DNA of 64,000 nt. It comes from Hydractinia symbiolongicarpus. Its lineage: Eukaryota; Cnidaria; Hydrozoa; Anthoathecata; Hydractiniidae. Shown here piece by piece: positions 29,871-56,000 of this stretch. The stretch lies in contig NC_079879.1 in assembly GCF_029227915.1 (NCBI RefSeq), positions 20,850,501 through 20,914,500 of the forward strand, written 5' to 3'. The notes under the pieces are model-generated. The model saw only the letters and a list, made by a program, of their open reading frames with translations, did not search any database and had not been told where the DNA came from. The position numbers were made by a program, and so were the translations under genes. Every line of letters starts with the position of its first letter. The stretch's first letter is position 1.

Positions 29871-31715
29871 TATAACAGATGAATTCCCGATTCTCGCGTA
29901 AGCCATCCTAAATAAATTTTGTTCGCGTCCTTTTCTCAACTTCTTAAATAGAACGACCTAAAGCTGTATGAAATATTGATCTACCTTGCATAAGCAACAT
30001 TTGGGTTCAGGTGTGATTAATTTTTGAAAATACATTGAATGACTATAATGGACTTGCAGTAGCCGGCCATGGAAAATGTTTTTACTATAACCCTCAACAA
30101 AAGGTGCGGCCTCCGAGAGTCTTGTCTTTACATTCTTATTTTTGATATGCCTGATGTGGAAACTTTATTGATATGCTCAAAAAGTCAGTTTAGGTTTAGA
30201 TTTAGTGCTACACTTTCTTATACGTAGACCTGACTAGCATATCAAATGAGTTCATCATGCTTATATACCTAATTTGTTACCAAATATAGTTTAATTTCCA
30301 TGCTCTCTCGTCAAAACAAACTTTCGATTTAGTGATATTTAATATATTTTCAGACCGTAGCTCATATTAGCGCTAAAAGAAATACTAAAAGGAAATAATC
30401 CTATTTTAATAAATAGGAATAAAAAAGTAGCAAATTCATCATAACAAAAGTAATTGTCCATGAACAAGTTGTCAATATAGTTATGAAGTGCGTATAATTT
30501 TTTTGTACTTGACTTGTTGAGCGGAGCGCGAGGAGTGAGAGTAGTATCCATGTCGGAGATTTTACTTAAACCGATTTGTAGCTCCCTTTACTCTATTTGT
30601 ACTAACCCGCCTCCTCTCATCCCCTTTCTCCCTTGCTAGTTTTTTCTTGTGTAACTTTTGAATGGGTCATTCTTTTGACTTCGTTTCTGTTGTCACCATT
30701 TTGCTTTAGCACCACAAGGTTATAACAGTTCGCCGAAAAATGCTTAAAGCAAGCGTCAAATACATACAAACACTGGGTTGCACCCAGGTAGGGCTCCACG
30801 TCGTATTTGGGTCAAAATCGCAATTGGGTTACAACAATTACACCTTAATTCAAGATAATTCTTCATTTTAGCAGCGAATATTTCGCTGTAAACTTTTAAC
30901 CAGTCAGAAGGAAATATTTAAGTGCTTTTGAAAAAACTCATCACTGGAGAGATTTCAAAATAACTGTCTTGTTTTTAATACCCCAAAAGTGCTTAGATTC
31001 AGTATTTTATATTCGCCACATGTTTTTTGTTTTTAGTGAAAATCAAAAAGATATTTCCCAGCCAATTCGTCGCCAACTACTTCGCCCATAAAACTAACTT
31101 TTTACAGCCTACATTGTTCAACCTACTTTGCACGGCAACCTTCTTTAAACAGTCCGTGTTTATTTCAAACCAAAACTGTAAGAATCAATCTACATCGTAA
31201 AAGGAGTCAATTTTGCGTAAATTGTAAGTTGGACTACTTTGTTAGGAAACACGCCCCATTATTAAAAGAAGCTTTCTTTTGGCGTCGCGTAGCAAACGTG
31301 CTCCACAATTACGCTCAATCGCTACGCAATAAATGAAAAATACAAAAAAGCTTGATGCACAAATGCCCAAGTTCCAGCCTACAGTTAAGTAAATATCTAC
31401 TTTGCGCTGTGTATGAATGTGAAAGAAATGAAAACCGGGAGTAAGTATGTTTAGACTGCGAAAAATACATGTGCAGTAATTGAATGATTTTCCCTACATT
31501 TTTAGCTGATGATGCTAACTATCCAAGAGGGTAAACCATGTTTTGTCAAGTCATAGCTAGCTGGCTAGCTACCTTAAGTTAGATGCTAGTGCTAGCTACT
31601 TAGCTAGTGCTATGTAGTTTTAAATATTGCTAGCATAGGAAAACTAAAGTAATATTTACTTTCCCTACTTTGCCGTCCCACAGGTAAATAAATTTGGGAA
31701 CTTATTTCGTAACTA
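29871..31715. other. Interval without a recognised gene
   Basis: AT-rich sequence. Short ORFs on both strands (for example minus 30551-30339 and 30799-30617) have no recognisable similarity. It holds the second copy of a dispersed repeat (30880-31085) and a TAGC-rich patch (about 31552-31615). Confidence 0.55.
30880..31085 (+). repeat. Dispersed repeat, copy 2 (partner at 25625-25835)
   Basis: This is collinear with copy 1: TTTTAACCAGTCA, GAAAAAACTCATCACTGGA, TTTTTAATACCCCAAAA, AGTATTTTATATTCGCCACA, then AATCAAAAAGATATTT and GCCAATTCGTCGCCAA. It marks a medium-copy family of unknown class. Confidence 0.65.
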
Positions 31716-31742
31716 CAGTGGAATCCCCCTAAAGCGGACACC
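31716..31742 (+). repeat. Left terminal inverted repeat of the HIRAN-Tigger transposon
   Basis: 27 bp starting CAGTGGAATCCCCCTAAAGC. It matches the right end with one mismatch (C/T at position 13) and is preceded by TA. Confidence 0.93.
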
Positions 31743-31974
31743 CTATAAAGCGGACAGCCCTCTAAAGCGGACAAAAATTTTTGCACCGGCAGAATTTAGG
31801 TCAAACTCTCATAAAAAAATCTCTATAAAGCGGACGATTATAAAGCGGACACTCTATAAAGCGGACAAAAATCTTTGCACCAAATGACAGTTTCCCTTAT
31901 AAACACTCCCTATAAAGCGGACAATGGAAAAATAACGAGATGAAATGTCACTTTTTCTTAAAATTTAAACCATT

Positions 31975-32553
31975 TTACTTAGTACATCTTTGAGTTTTGT
32001 TATTTACCGAGTCCAACACTTTCCTTATATTTTTCTCGGCCCACTCAACTGCCTTTTCAACACCAATTAATTGGTACTGGGCAGGAATTTCTAGTCCGTA
32101 GCCAGCACCACGGTTCACTCGCTTCCCAGTCACTTTACATCCGATGGTACAGTTAGGAAGCGACATGAATTTGTTGAATAGTTTGCTAAGGTTTTTAGGG
32201 ACGTGCCCAACTACTTTATCGTCATCTGTAACAGCTACAGCAAACTTGTCATGTTCGTTATCTTCTTCCGCTTTTAAACAAAAATTCTCTTCTCCGACTT
32301 TTGGGCTCCATTTGTCCATGTAAGCATGGTATCCACGGATAAACGAGTCGAAGCGATATTCTTTCTGTTTTATAAGGATAATCTCAATCTGTTGGTCAAT
32401 GTTTTTGAGAAGCATCTCATTTAGTTGAACGTTCGACATATCTGTGTTCTCTTCAGCTTCTTTAACTTTAAAATAGCATTCGAATCGTGAAGACATTGCA
32501 GCGTAAAATTTTAAACTGGAAAGAATTTCGAATTTTGAATTTCTAATGCACAT
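31975..32553 (-). CDS. HIRAN-domain protein carried by the Tigger-like transposon
   Basis: 192 aa. The HIRAN domain occupies roughly residues 68-170: FDSFIRGYHAYMDKWSPKVG, then E-E-D-N-E-H-D-K-F-A-V-A-V, VVGHVPKNLSKLF and CKVTGKRVNRGAGYGLEIPA. This matches the family pattern G-x-YY/H, E-x-x-N-x-x-D-x-x-A-V, VGHVP and VTG...GLE.P. HIRAN domains, named for HIP116 (HLTF) and Rad5, bind free 3' ends of single-stranded DNA in HLTF (established). Here there is no helicase, ATPase or nuclease fused. The first ATG (32553) is only 5 bp from the transposase ATG on the other strand. Met20 (MSSRFECYF, 32496) may be the true start, which would leave about 60 bp for a shared promoter. A role in transposition is inference. 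Confidence 0.88.
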   Translation of the reverse strand: MCIRNSKFEILSSLKFYAAMSSRFECYFKVKEAEENTDMSNVQLNEMLLKNIDQQIEIILIKQKEYRFDSFIRGYHAYMDKWSPKVGEENFCLKAEEDNEHDKFAVAVTDDDKVVGHVPKNLSKLFNKFMSLPNCTIGCKVTGKRVNRGAGYGLEIPAQYQLIGVEKAVEWAEKNIRKVLDSVNNKTQRCTK

Positions 32554-32558
32554 TCAAC

Positions 32559-34184
32559 ATGGCAATGTCGAAGCAGCAGCTTGCTGGTAAACTAGCGAAG
32601 AAAACTTTATCATTAGATGATAAGATCAAGTTTTTGGATTTCGCCAAAAAAAATCCAGAACTTGGATGTAGAAAACTAGCAGACATTTACAAGATTGGAA
32701 AGACAGCCGCAGCAAATATTTTAAGAGACGAAAAGAAAATTCGTGAACAACATGAAATTTTTCGTGAGAAAACAAAAAAACGTAACCGCCATGGCAAGTA
32801 TCACAAGATAAATGAGATCTTATTCGAATGGTACAAAAGATGTTGCGCTTCTAACATCTACCCTAATGGTGTAATGCTTAAAGAGGAGGCGTTGGAAATT
32901 AAGGAAAAACTTCAGAACAGCGATTTTGATAATTTCTCCGCCTCTGACGGTTGGTTGGATCGTTGGAAAACAACATATTCCGTCAAAGAACGTCGTATTG
33001 TTGGTGAAGCTGGTGACGTTTCTACAGAAACGGTTACTTCCTGGATGGAGAGGATCAAAGAATTGGTTGAAGGTTATTCACTAGAAAATATTTGGAACAT
33101 GGACGAGTCTGGCTGTTTTTTTAAAGCTCTACCGGCCAAAGGGTTAGTGGAAAAAGGAAAACAAGCAAAAGGTGGGAAAAAGTCAAAGCTTAGATTAACT
33201 GTCGCTTTTTTTGTAAATGCAGCTGGGGAAAAGATCGACCAGCCTGTTGTTATCTGGAAGAGTAAAGTCCCGCGTTGTTTTAAAAAATTGAAAGATCCAT
33301 CGCGTCCAGCTAACGTTCACTACTTTTCAAATCCTAAATCTTGGATGACATCTCAAGTAATGGAAACTGTACTGGCACGTTTTAACAGAAAACTTTTATT
33401 TGAGGACAGAAAAGTTATTCTTTTTCTGGACAACGCCACCTGTCATCCGGAGTCAATGATAGGCCAGTTTTCACAAATCAAAATCATTTTCTTACCGAAG
33501 AACACAACTTCAAGGCTTCAACCACTCGATGCGGGGATCATCAAAAACTTCAAGGTGAAGTACAGAAAAAGACTGGTCAAATACGTGCTTGCAAGGATCC
33601 AGGAGAATAAATCTGCAACTGAAATTATCAAGAGCGTAGACATACTTATGGCTATTCAATGGGTTCAAGATGCGTGGAAAGAAGTAACCAACTTGACCAT
33701 CAAAAATTGTTTCGAGAAATGTGGCGTAGTTCAAGGAGAAAGTGAATTGATGGAAGATAAAGAAGATGACTTGGAATTTGAAGCTCTGGTGAAGGAATTA
33801 ACTGAAGATATGTCTGCTGCAGAATACATCGATTTTGACGCCGATGTTCCAGCTTCGGAGCCAAGAATTAACGAATTAGAAATAAATTGGCGACATCAAA
33901 TCCGAGAAGCTAGCATTAACGCAATTGAAAATCCAGAGATGGCATGTCAGGTCGAAGAGATTTCCGAGGATGATGATGAGAGTGAAGACGTGGTTGAAGA
34001 AGAAATGCTTGGTTTCACCGAGCTAATCACTATGCTTGATAAATTAAGCGATCTACTATTTTTGATGATACATGCCAAGAAATGTTGTCAACCATTACGA
34101 AAAAGATTGAGGAACTTCAGCTTCAAAATAGAAAACAATCCTCAATCAAAGATTATTTCAAATAGGGAGAAAAACGTGTATTGA
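32559..34184 (+). CDS. Tigger/pogo-like transposase (CENP-B HTH + DDE)
   Basis: 541 aa, uninterrupted. It has an N-terminal psq/CENP-B-type helix-turn-helix (about residues 10-60, with CRKLADIYKIGKTAAANIL) and a second Tc5/CENP-B-type helix-turn-helix (about 75-145, with SDGWLDRWK). A DDE_1 catalytic core follows with D182 (NMDESGCFF), D291 (FLDNATCHP) and D324 (QPLDAGIIKNFK), that is DD32D spacing, and then an acidic C-terminal tail. It would bind the inverted repeats and subterminal GCGGAC motifs and catalyse cut-and-paste transposition into TA. It starts 5 bp from the divergent HIRAN ORF. All three catalytic aspartates are present, so the enzyme could be active. Confidence 0.95.
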   Translation: MAMSKQQLAGKLAKKTLSLDDKIKFLDFAKKNPELGCRKLADIYKIGKTAAANILRDEKKIREQHEIFREKTKKRNRHGKYHKINEILFEWYKRCCASNIYPNGVMLKEEALEIKEKLQNSDFDNFSASDGWLDRWKTTYSVKERRIVGEAGDVSTETVTSWMERIKELVEGYSLENIWNMDESGCFFKALPAKGLVEKGKQAKGGKKSKLRLTVAFFVNAAGEKIDQPVVIWKSKVPRCFKKLKDPSRPANVHYFSNPKSWMTSQVMETVLARFNRKLLFEDRKVILFLDNATCHPESMIGQFSQIKIIFLPKNTTSRLQPLDAGIIKNFKVKYRKRLVKYVLARIQENKSATEIIKSVDILMAIQWVQDAWKEVTNLTIKNCFEKCGVVQGESELMEDKEDDLEFEALVKELTEDMSAAEYIDFDADVPASEPRINELEINWRHQIREASINAIENPEMACQVEEISEDDDESEDVVEEEMLGFTELITMLDKLSDLLFLMIHAKKCCQPLRKRLRNFSFKIENNPQSKIISNREKNVY

Positions 34185-34507
34185 AAGACCTATAAGATAA
34201 ATGAAATATATCTTCGTAATATAACTTGGTTTCTTAGTTTATAACCTTAGCAACACTTAAAGGTTGGTTGCAACACCGACAAATTTGAGCTGCTAAACTT
34301 ACTTTACACAGCCAACTTGGGTTCTTTGCTCGATAAGCTAAATCTATTGATGTTGCCGTCTACCCTAGTGTTGCAAGTCACCCCATGATACCCGCCAGTA
34401 CTACAAAAAAAGCTTTTTTGGTCAAAATTAGGTCTAAAACTAATTTTTTGGTCAACTTCCTATAAAGCGGACATCCCTCTAAAGCTGACACTTTTTTTTG
34501 CACCAAT

Positions 34508-34534
34508 GGTGTCCGCTTTAGAGGGATTCCACTG
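34508..34534 (-). repeat. Right terminal inverted repeat of the HIRAN-Tigger transposon
   Basis: Inverse of the left end; it ends GGGATTCCACTG and is followed by TA. Confidence 0.93.
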
Positions 34535-36312
34535 TATCTATAGCTGAATAAATAGTATTCTCTCATTCTTTCCACAGGTGACTTGCAATGTTTATATACA
34601 AAAGTTAAAAAGTTTGCGTTTTTTGCGCATGGACAAGCATTTCTGTAGGTAGAAAATATAAACAACAGACCGCTAATAAAAAAGAAATATTCCCTTCAAA
34701 TTAGTCTTCTTGGACCTTAGCTACTCAAAAATTATAATTCTTCATTAATAGCCATTTGACCCTCCGGAGTACTGCTTTCTACCTAGCTACACAAAAGTGC
34801 GTGCATGCCCATTGTTCTTAAAGCTATGTCACACGTTGAATTAGCCTAAAGGAATCACAACTATTGCATTCTTAAATGTTATATATATGCAGTTTTTAAA
34901 GAAATAAACTCAGTACTATTTGTTTAAGCTTACCTCAATGTATTCAATATTTGTTCCAATTTAACAATGTAGCTAACTGGTAGCTAATATTCCTTTCATA
35001 GAATTTGTACTAATACTTTAGATATATACAATCCAAAGTTTGTCTATATTCTGTATTAACCTTTTCGGAGTTTTCAATGGAACTTCAGGGATATTTTATT
35101 GCAACAAAATTACATTGGCAGCACAACAAAAAAAGTTTGTCTTGTAGCAAACATGCTTTTTAGATTGGCGTACATAAATAGATGTTTTAAAACAATCTAG
35201 GTAATAAACGATGTATTTATATCATGTATTAAAAATTAAAAATATTTTTATTCAAGAACAAATATCCTTTAACATAAAAATTAAGCATTTTTTAATTATA
35301 TACATCATCTGTATTGTCTACAATGAACTTTATTTTTATATCTTTAATTACTGTTGTTTCTGAACTTAATAGCCTTTTCGCTGAAAGTAAGGTCTCATGC
35401 AGATGATTGTTGTTGGAACAATAAGTTTCCCTGATCTGTTTAGCTTCTAGTAATGTAATTATTTTCTCTAAAAAACAATGGTCTATTGTAAAAGTATATA
35501 ATTGTTCATGCAAGTTGTGCGTATACAGAAGACTACATTCAGACTCTACTGTATGGTATATATATCACAATTTGTGCTGGTGGAAGCATTTTTGAGAATA
35601 GGGCTTCTGATTTATAGTACTGAATCTATGACAGAGGCTATAATAAAGAATTGTAGAGTAATTGGAATAGTAAAAGGGTTTTTTGTCAGTCAAACACAAC
35701 CCTGCACTTAGTAGCCTCAACGAGTCTTTAAATAGCACTTTTTATAGTTTCTTTTAACCATGGAAAAATATTGCGAGACATTTTACGGCTACTTTGTCAG
35801 TAAATATTACTCTAAATTGTTTTGTGAGGTGCATAATAAAACAGATACCCACTAGCTTTTGCAGAACAAACAGTGCCCCTGGTATTACTTGGTACAGTAC
35901 AATTTTGTGGCTAACACAAGCTTACTATGTTTCCATGATATTTGTTTAAGATAAATATAATACTTAAATATGAACATAAACATATACCACATAAATATGA
36001 GAATAAATTTGAACAAGTACAGTATTTAATAAACTTGTTTATAAATGTTATAAAAGTTTAATGGCAGTACCTAAAAGTGGCTGCCATAAGGTACATACAA
36101 AATTTAGTAGAAACCTATATGGAACTCCCTTAAATATTTGGAAGGTAAAATTTTGTTTGTATATAAACCTGTATTCATTTTCCACATAAAATACCTAAAA
36201 AAATGAATTTTATAATATTTTTGTTTGGCAACAAAAATTATTTTGTTTAATAAAATGTTATTGCCACTTGGATTAAATTCTTTGTTCATGGTAATTTGTC
36301 CCCATGAAACTA

Positions 36313-53000: not shown

Positions 53001-56000
53001 CGATTGATGAAATTTCGGAGGAGGTAAAGGATCAAATAAAATCTAGTTACTCAATGTCTTCATCAGAAGGAAGGTATGAAGTTAAAGAGAATGAGATATT
53101 AAATGAACAAACCCTGCTTGATACAAGCAAGATCTCTAAATTTTCTATTATGTCAGGTATTTCAGTGCACTTTTTTACCCTCTTTTAGTTTTTAAAAGTT
53201 AGCAGTGTAGAATACTGTGTCTCAATTAGAATGTATTTTTATATCTAGGTTATCATGAACTTGTGTATGTCACACACATTAAAGATCCATCGGAATTTCA
53301 AGTACAAAGAGCATCAGACAAAGATAGATTAAATGTGCTGATGACAGCATTAAATAAATATTGCAGACATTCTAACTCTCCTAAAGATCTTGTCTACAAA
53401 ACAGAGGAAGGTATTGTATTAGACCTTTTCTTCTCTTAAGATATGCTGTTTATTTTGTGAAATTTAGTCATTCATAACGTGAAAAGAACAACACAATATA
53501 GTTATCGTTTTTGATGAATTGGCATTTAAAATGCTGTGAAAACCATTTAATTTCAACAATAAGTCATTGTATTTTAAAACACATCCCAAATAGTGAACTT
53601 TTTTACTTTCTTGCCTAATAAACAAGTCAAGATAAACTTGTGACTTTTGTTGTCATAGCTTTAGTAGTTTGAAAGAAAAAGTGAAACAACTTGAAAATAG
53701 CAAAAATGCAAAACGTTAAGACAACCTGTTACGTGTATGATTGTTTAAGAGCCACAACAGATAGTTTTTTAAGTTACAACCAGGTTAAGGTGACGGTATA
53801 CCTTTTGAGCATGATTTTTTAAAATAAATTTTTAAATTTTTTCAGCTATAGTTAATCAAAGTTATTCATTCATAAATCACTAAAAAGCATTTTTAAACAC
53901 CTATCAAATGGTATAAAAATAATTTAAAACTTTTTAACTTGTAAAATGTATGGAGACATTTTTGAAACACACCCTGCCTTCAAAAAAGTGACTTCATTTA
54001 CAAAACTACTTCGTTTCCATTTCTCATTCGATGTTCTTTAGAATCATAATAGATGTATGTAAAAACGATTTTTTGATTATTTTCCACAAAGTCCCTGTTT
54101 TTGATTTATTTTACTTTTTTCTAAAAAAGCCATTTTTTAACTGAAACTTTTGTCTTTAAGATGTAATATCTAGAGAATTGTTGATTTTTTAGGGATAAAA
54201 AAAAATCTTTAAAAAAAACCTTTCAAGCATACTCATAATGATGTTGATACTTTCACACTTCCGAGGCGATGAATATTCAGAAGGTTGTCCTTTTAAATTT
54301 TATTATTCACAAAGATGCAGCAAAAAAAATGTTGCAAGTCATGTGAAACAAAGCAACAACCTGAAACTTTGCTGCATGTTATCTGCAACATTCAAAAAAA
54401 TGTTGCAAGAAATCAAATTGATTTGATTTCGTGCAACAATTTTTTGACGAATTAAGTCGCCTTTAAAAAATCCCTTTATTTTACCCAGCTCCACGATGCA
54501 ATTTTTTCATCAGCATGCAATGCAACAAAATCGCATTGCATGCGGATGAAAAAATCGCATCGTCTCCCCGCTTTAGTATATCATAGAAATTCAAACAATA
54601 ACAAAAAAACTTAAAAAATAATATAGATGTATCTGTTTCAAAAATGTATAATACAAAAAGTTAAAAAAAATGTCAACGTGCTGCGTTTGTGTGGAATCCC
54701 TGAGGTCCCAAACCACTGAATATTTTTAAAAGCCCTTTACGTCCCTTTCCGGCAAAGCGAGCTGCAAGTACGCTTTGACGGTTGATATTGTAAGTTTTGT
54801 CGGACTTTTCAGTTGTCAAAAAACTCTTGTTAAGTGAGCATTCGCTATTTGTGCAAGTCAGTTCAAACTTTGCCCCCAATCCAGCACGAAAGCTACAGAT
54901 TTCTTTTATAGTTATGACATTGTGACAAAGTTTGAATACACACGATTTTCTCAAGCATTCTGGAATGAAATCCATGTTCGTGATCCAGTAGCACGACGTC
55001 AAAGGTTTATCGCATTCTTTGTTCGACGAATCTTTGCTTTCACTGGAACTTTCTAAGTCATTTAACATTTTTCTTTGACTTGCAGAAACAGAACAGGATG
55101 GCACAGAAGAGGATCGGAGTTTACTTTGATTTTTAATCAATCTCCTTTTTGCTGGAGAATTATTTTTTTTATATTTTTCTTTTTTTGTTTTTTTGAAGAC
55201 AAGAACAGCGTATTACGATAACTTGACATTTTTAGAAATGAAAGGTTTGAGGTGTTTTTTTTCCAGATGGTCATTTCTTTTTGGAAAGGACATATAAAAG
55301 ATTTTTTTTATTTTGAAAAATTATACTCAAGAGCATGAAAATGTAACTCCTATTCAATTTGAGGTGTGAAAATCTGAAAAAAAGTTACTTATTCGGATAA
55401 AATCAATATTTCATTTCGAAAAATAAATAAATAGTTTCACCATTGGAAAGATCGTCGTTTTTTTAGTATAAATGGCTAATAAAAAAAATTCGATTTTTTT
55501 GATACAATAAAGGTATACCGTCACCTTAACTATAATACGAAAAGGGAAGTCGATTTTCCTAGAGTGCATTACATAGAAAAAGGTCTGCCATCATAAACAC
55601 AATGAAACAAAGGTAGTATTTTTTTCGTTTTTTCAACACAGACAAAAGCCTAAAGTAGTCACTACTGGTGCTGGACTCTAATATAGAAACAACAAATGTG
55701 ATCACTTGTAGCAGCTAAATTCAATAGTAGCAGTGCTCTGTCTTCATATTTAGTCCATGTTGTGTGTTTTTTGTTGTGGTTCGTTGTGTGACAAAAATCA
55801 AATGAAAACAATTTTTAAAACGAAAATAATTGTTTTGCAAATGTATTTTTTTTTTAATCGGGAAGAGCTCAAATCTGAAATAATCATTTTAGGGAGGATA
55901 TTTTAAAATAGTTTTAGTGGTAGTGGACAAAAGTAAACAATAAAATAAGTGAACAACGTCATGTTAGTGTCTACCTTCTAACACATACTGCGCGATTATG

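Follow-up and report, generated by a model that had tools for sequence, protein, structure and literature searches.

We analysed a 64-kb stretch of the genome of Hydractinia symbiolongicarpus (hereafter the window), which contains a Tigger element of 2,819 bp. The element is a member of an old two-gene Tigger (pogo-superfamily) lineage in which a protein with a HIRAN domain is a regular, selected accessory to the transposase. A preliminary description of the locus had claimed intact 27-bp inverted repeats with TA duplications. Both ends and the TA on either side are present, while the terminal inverted repeats (TIRs) match at 26 of 27 bp and are near-perfect rather than identical; their length and the TA duplication lie within the range of Tigger elements, 8-33 bp with TA (PMC9219625). 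Three ATG open reading frames (ORFs) of at least 60 amino acids overlap positions 31000-35500: HIRAN, the transposase and a 62-aa ORF (34378-34566, minus strand) that spans the right end of the element and is taken as a chance ORF, which leaves the two genes originally described. They lie head-to-head with outer ATGs 5 nt apart, although HIRAN translation is suggested by relatives to begin further inside. Judged by the spacing, a shared promoter may co-express both genes in head-to-head types.

The 192-aa HIRAN ORF has HIRAN as its sole Pfam match (E 1.8e-8; 34.5 bits against a Pfam cut-off of 24.7) and lacks an SNF2 motor or RING in the same protein, bearing out the earlier reading of a divergent, stand-alone gene. 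It is predicted to take the HIRAN fold, and all 45 aligned proteins match Pfam HIRAN at E <= 0.01. The transposase matches DDE_1 (E 1.8e-38) and HTH_Tnp_Tc5 (E 2.2e-12). Its catalytic triad, read on a relative (P0122) that is 99% identical over 92% of the window transposase, is DD32D (D182, D291, D324), within the DD29-36D spacing of Tigger (PMC7386202). The protein thus combines DDE_1, an HTH DNA-binding domain and a DDD triad, and we assign the element to Tigger on its domains, its ends and the database name of P0122 rather than on a reference pogo tree. The transposase had been described as full; the domains are all there, but the frame departs from that of its relatives about 45 residues before its end, so that a C-terminal PIP-like motif is out of frame. 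Sister copies retain the PIP motif that the window copy lost. Among 21 near-identical copies, window included, 7 pass at least one of two checks for an uninterrupted transposase frame that includes the motif; the checks found 5 and 6 such copies, with 4 in common.

The 13-bp repeat TATAAAGCGGACA, allowing up to two mismatches, occurs 12 times in the window against a chance expectation of 1.4. Ten copies fall within the element; its left end has 7 and its right end 3, counting one inside each TIR, and those of the left subterminal region are probable transposase-binding sites. Coordinates are collected in Table 1.

Table 1. Features of the two-gene Tigger element, in window positions.
Feature	Position	Strand	Remarks
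Tigger element	31716..34534		2,819 bp
TA target-site duplication, left	31714..31715	.	TA also flanks all 20 near-identical copies fetched
Left TIR, 27 bp	31716..31742	+	
Left subterminal repeats TATAAAGCGGACA, 6 copies besides the TIR one	31744..31923	+	candidate transposase-binding sites
HIRAN ORF, 192 aa	31975..32553	-	likely functional start near 32439, from relatives
Putative shared bidirectional promoter between both genes	32440..32558	.	proposed from spacing only
Tigger transposase ORF, 541 aa, HTH_Tnp_Tc5 + DDE_1, DD32D	32559..34184	+	frame leaves that of relatives near 34044
Out-of-frame remnant of C-terminal PIP-like motif (QxxIxxYF)	34136..34159	+	
Right subterminal repeats, 2 copies besides the TIR one	34461..34490	+	
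Right TIR, 27 bp, 1 mismatch to left	34508..34534	-	
TA target-site duplication, right	34535..34536	.	

We searched the genome (480.9 Mb, 76 contigs) for the HIRAN gene and scored the best 150 of 773 candidates, giving 150 places. Full-length open copies with 98-100% identity number 25 among these listed places, window included. Twenty of the other 24 were fetched, and every one has the two TIRs flanked by TA, together with HIRAN and a transposase that is at least partly present; whether HIRAN recurs inside the same borders was one of the checks that the preliminary description had suggested. Flanks differ among the fetched copies except for L009 and L011 on contig C1, whose 22-bp flanks are identical and which are probably a single insertion duplicated along with its surroundings. 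Of 20 more diverged HIRAN places that were fetched, 10 are enclosed by two recognisable TIRs of the window type.

Sampling through the transposase removes the bias towards HIRAN. From 80 of 899 candidates scored, 85 stretches were merged into 76 loci, and a listed HIRAN lies within 3 kb at 60 of them. When the HIRAN places were shifted by 200 kb, 500 kb, -300 kb and 1 Mb, the counts fell to 0, 1, 0 and 0 loci. By transposase type, HIRAN is paired at 25 of 26 loci of the window type, 6 of 11 of a related type (50-80% identity), 29 of 38 of a CENP-B_N type (30-38% identity) and not at the single locus at 42%. For 8 of the 16 unpaired loci we fetched 1.5-1.9 kb of the 5' side, and six show a deleted or frame-broken HIRAN. 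Conversely, a listed transposase lies within 3.5 kb of 60 of the 150 HIRAN places, both lists being the best-scored part of their candidates. Five elements of 0.9-1.6 kb (L029, L030, L035, L036, L038), found via HIRAN and hence a biased sample, have both TIRs and part or most of HIRAN with little or no transposase. Four further HIRAN-bearing stretches (L040, L043, L045, L051) have no transposase match; L040, L043 and L045 are repeats of each other, and window-type TIRs are absent from these three.

We compared the window HIRAN with six older-subfamily copies (L029-L034) by codon position. They differ at 0.20-0.23, 0.16-0.20 and 0.59-0.62 of first, second and third positions; the six are from the same genome and are not independent of one another. 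Synonymous sites are mostly saturated, and we therefore give no omega. The contrast between positions indicates purifying selection on HIRAN. It also bears on whether HIRAN is a mere passenger, a host fragment captured once and drifting neutrally, for transposons commonly capture genes by accident. The codon-position constraint, the regular presence of HIRAN at most transposase loci sampled, and its pairing and co-divergence with deeply different transposases, described below, all speak against this, and we regard it as exceedingly improbable. Neither of the outcomes that the preliminary description named as fatal to its idea, the other copies lacking the HIRAN ORF or a one-off fragment in drift, was borne out by the loci sampled.

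Further HIRAN-bearing Tigger types have transposases only 30-34% identical to that of the window, with HIRAN head-to-head or nested. L049 is a complete 2.8-kb element with perfect 23-bp TIRs and TA, in which HIRAN is divergent from a transposase with CENP-B_N, HTH_Tnp_Tc5 and DDE_1. In L050 (2368-5306) and L052 (1284-4176), two transposase stretches, probably exons, enclose a HIRAN gene that runs on the opposite strand, and inverted repeats bound the whole. In L046 (1148-3186), a pogo-type element, HIRAN separates the DNA-binding part of a transposase from its C-terminal part. All three are encoded on the same strand, and we did not find most of the catalytic domain. The HIRANs of these four score just under the Pfam cut-off (E 3.5e-5 to 3.1e-4), and those of L049, L050 and L052 are 33-38% identical to the window HIRAN. 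Identity matrices of HIRAN and transposase agree (Mantel r 0.967; 4 of 20,000 permutations; 9 pairs), and the two trees share the same deep split with support of 1.0 in both. Within groups the trees disagree in places, where HIRAN support is low (0.41-0.56 at three nodes). By these comparisons the pairing of HIRAN with Tigger is old and is present with deeply different transposases. Because the genes have been kept together through long evolution, the HIRAN protein is suggested to help the element move or survive. One way would be counter-defence, with HIRAN acting against host silencing, immunity or another pathway distinct from end repair. Accessory genes retained over deep divergence often serve host conflict; we nevertheless judge this very unlikely here.

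We then looked at HIRAN proteins beyond this genome. A search of 5.8 billion proteins with the window HIRAN gave 335 relatives and one with a distant HIRAN member gave 124; the best 120 of each were used, 199 HIRAN proteins in all. Only P0010 reaches 80% identity with any stretch fetched from this genome, so that most of these proteins are probably from other genomes, the fetched stretches alone being compared. The N-terminal extensions of a HIRAN protein (P0087) and a transposase (P0134), 57% and 68% identical respectively to fetched stretches of this genome, are compatible as reverse complements along a run of 25 residues, against a maximum of 10 in 2,400 shuffled comparisons (score 50.5; top null score 16.4). 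This places the two genes opposite one another on one and the same piece of DNA. In addition, 13 of the 199 HIRAN proteins have a tail beyond the domain, and 9 of these tails contain translated Tigger repeat motifs. The matches number 19, against a shuffle mean of 0.85 and maximum of 5 (2,000 shuffles), with a motif set that was widened after inspection. The tail of P0011 resembles a translation of the left end of the window element. These results indicate that the pairing extends beyond this genome.

The arrangement of the two genes also bears on whether HIRAN could be a regulator that, by binding the element ends or a shared promoter, adjusts how strongly the transposase is expressed or how active it is. 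Such a role would suit the head-to-head genes of the window type and L049, the antisense overlap of P0087 and P0134, and the crowding of subterminal repeats near the left end. However, HIRAN lies between transposase parts on the opposite strand in L050 and L052 and on the transposase strand in L046, which means that a shared promoter is no constant feature; and HIRAN is not known to bind specific sequences. We consider a regulatory role rather unlikely.

What, then, might a stand-alone HIRAN do for a transposon? Staggered cuts of Tc1/mariner elements carry 3' overhangs. The footprints of one pogo-superfamily element are Tc1/mariner-like at 0-4 bp (PMC9976928), which fits short staggered cuts. 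A structural model of the HIRAN protein matches the HIRAN of HLTF, with Rad5 HIRAN a lower-ranking match. HLTF HIRAN binds 3'-OH single-stranded DNA, and the isolated domain inhibits HLTF-driven removal of Cas9 at cut ends (PMC11237066). Taken with the staggered cuts, this means that a stand-alone HIRAN could sit on and shield 3' ends. We therefore propose that the HIRAN protein binds the free 3'-OH single-stranded ends left by the transposase on excision, a reading to which we give an even chance. Lacking a motor, HIRAN on these ends would keep host remodellers and resection away from the post-cleavage complex, and shielded ends would favour re-insertion or orderly repair. In head-to-head types, a shared promoter may provide for co-expression of HIRAN and transposase.

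The transposase may add a second contact. Among 75 transposase relatives of at least 480 aa, 52 have the PIP pattern Qxx[ILM]xx[FY][FY] at the C-terminus. Together with published binding of pogo to PCNA, itself of unclear relevance (PMC5371812), the motif of intact transposases suggests coupling to PCNA, and it would place the same complex at sites of replication or repair. More speculatively, the functions of HLTF and Rad5 would in this ancient Tigger branch be split over two proteins, a motorless HIRAN that caps 3' ends and decoys host HLTF-like remodellers and a transposase that docks on PCNA; we regard this fuller version as tentative and doubtful.

Several observations weigh against end binding by a regular HIRAN partner. 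In the alignment with HLTF three positions are conserved, but this residue alignment depends on a weak profile match (E 0.13), and HLTF was recovered neither by a single-sequence search nor by a larger profile. At the site corresponding to HLTF Y93, near relatives have His and distant ones vary. Rad5 HIRAN contacts PCNA and binds single-stranded DNA without 3'-OH specificity (PMC7804152), so that the domain name alone cannot settle end binding. As to the pairing, two of the 76 transposase loci (L054, L057) show no HIRAN in the 1.5-1.9 kb of 5' flank fetched, and no listed transposase lies within 3.5 kb of 90 of the 150 HIRAN places on our list, which implies that HIRAN survives in deleted elements or elements of other kinds as well. 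The codon contrast is weaker in distant copies (L042, 0.31/0.24/0.64; L045, 0.39/0.42/0.64; L047, 0.48/0.41/0.57), and 23 of the 75 transposases lack the PIP pattern. The properties of Rad5 HIRAN suggest an alternative role as a fork or PCNA adaptor, in which HIRAN would touch PCNA and single-stranded DNA with no specificity for ends and, jointly with the PIP motif of the transposase, would link transposition to replication forks; we think this unlikely, and continue to favour binding of transposase-made 3' ends.

If HIRAN does act in this way, a conserved accessory gene of repair type would mean that some transposon lineages bring their own end handling. It would put the so far unexplained PIP motif carried by pogo transposases in context, and many HIRAN ORFs that stand alone in animal genome data would be accounted for as transposon genes. 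The element would also offer a small, defined system in which to study encounters between cut-and-paste ends and the proteins of forks and repair. Elements of the Tigger and pogo kinds are widespread, and host genes such as CENPB, JRK and the TIGDs descend from them (PMC7386202). Elsewhere in the window lies a partial Mutator-like transposase (54676-55212, minus strand; PF20700, E 1.5e-6).

In line with the preliminary description, our full-text searches listed no description of a HIRAN-Tigger system, judged by titles and the starts of abstracts, with subscription papers and repeat databases outside that scope. Unlike HLTF HIRAN, the Hydractinia HIRAN is stand-alone, without SNF2 motor or RING, and carried by a transposon; Rad5 HIRAN ranks lower as a match to it. 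PIF/Harbinger and other two-gene DNA transposons likewise encode a transposase and an accessory protein in each element, but in PIF/Harbinger the accessory is a Myb-like DNA-binding protein and the superfamily is a different one. The Tec/TBE elements of ciliates belong to the Tc1/mariner group and likewise have additional ORFs; a site-specific recombinase is named for them, and the word HIRAN is absent from the text of that source (PMC7325037). With the Tigger family itself the element shares 27-bp TIRs, a TA duplication, a length of about 2.8 kb, HTH_Tnp_Tc5 with DDE_1, and DD32D. In a survey of 383 Tigger elements from 325 species most complete elements have a single ORF (PMC9219625), in keeping with the earlier statement that such elements normally encode a transposase only. 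The Hydractinia element departs from this usual, though not defining, trait by carrying a conserved second gene, HIRAN.
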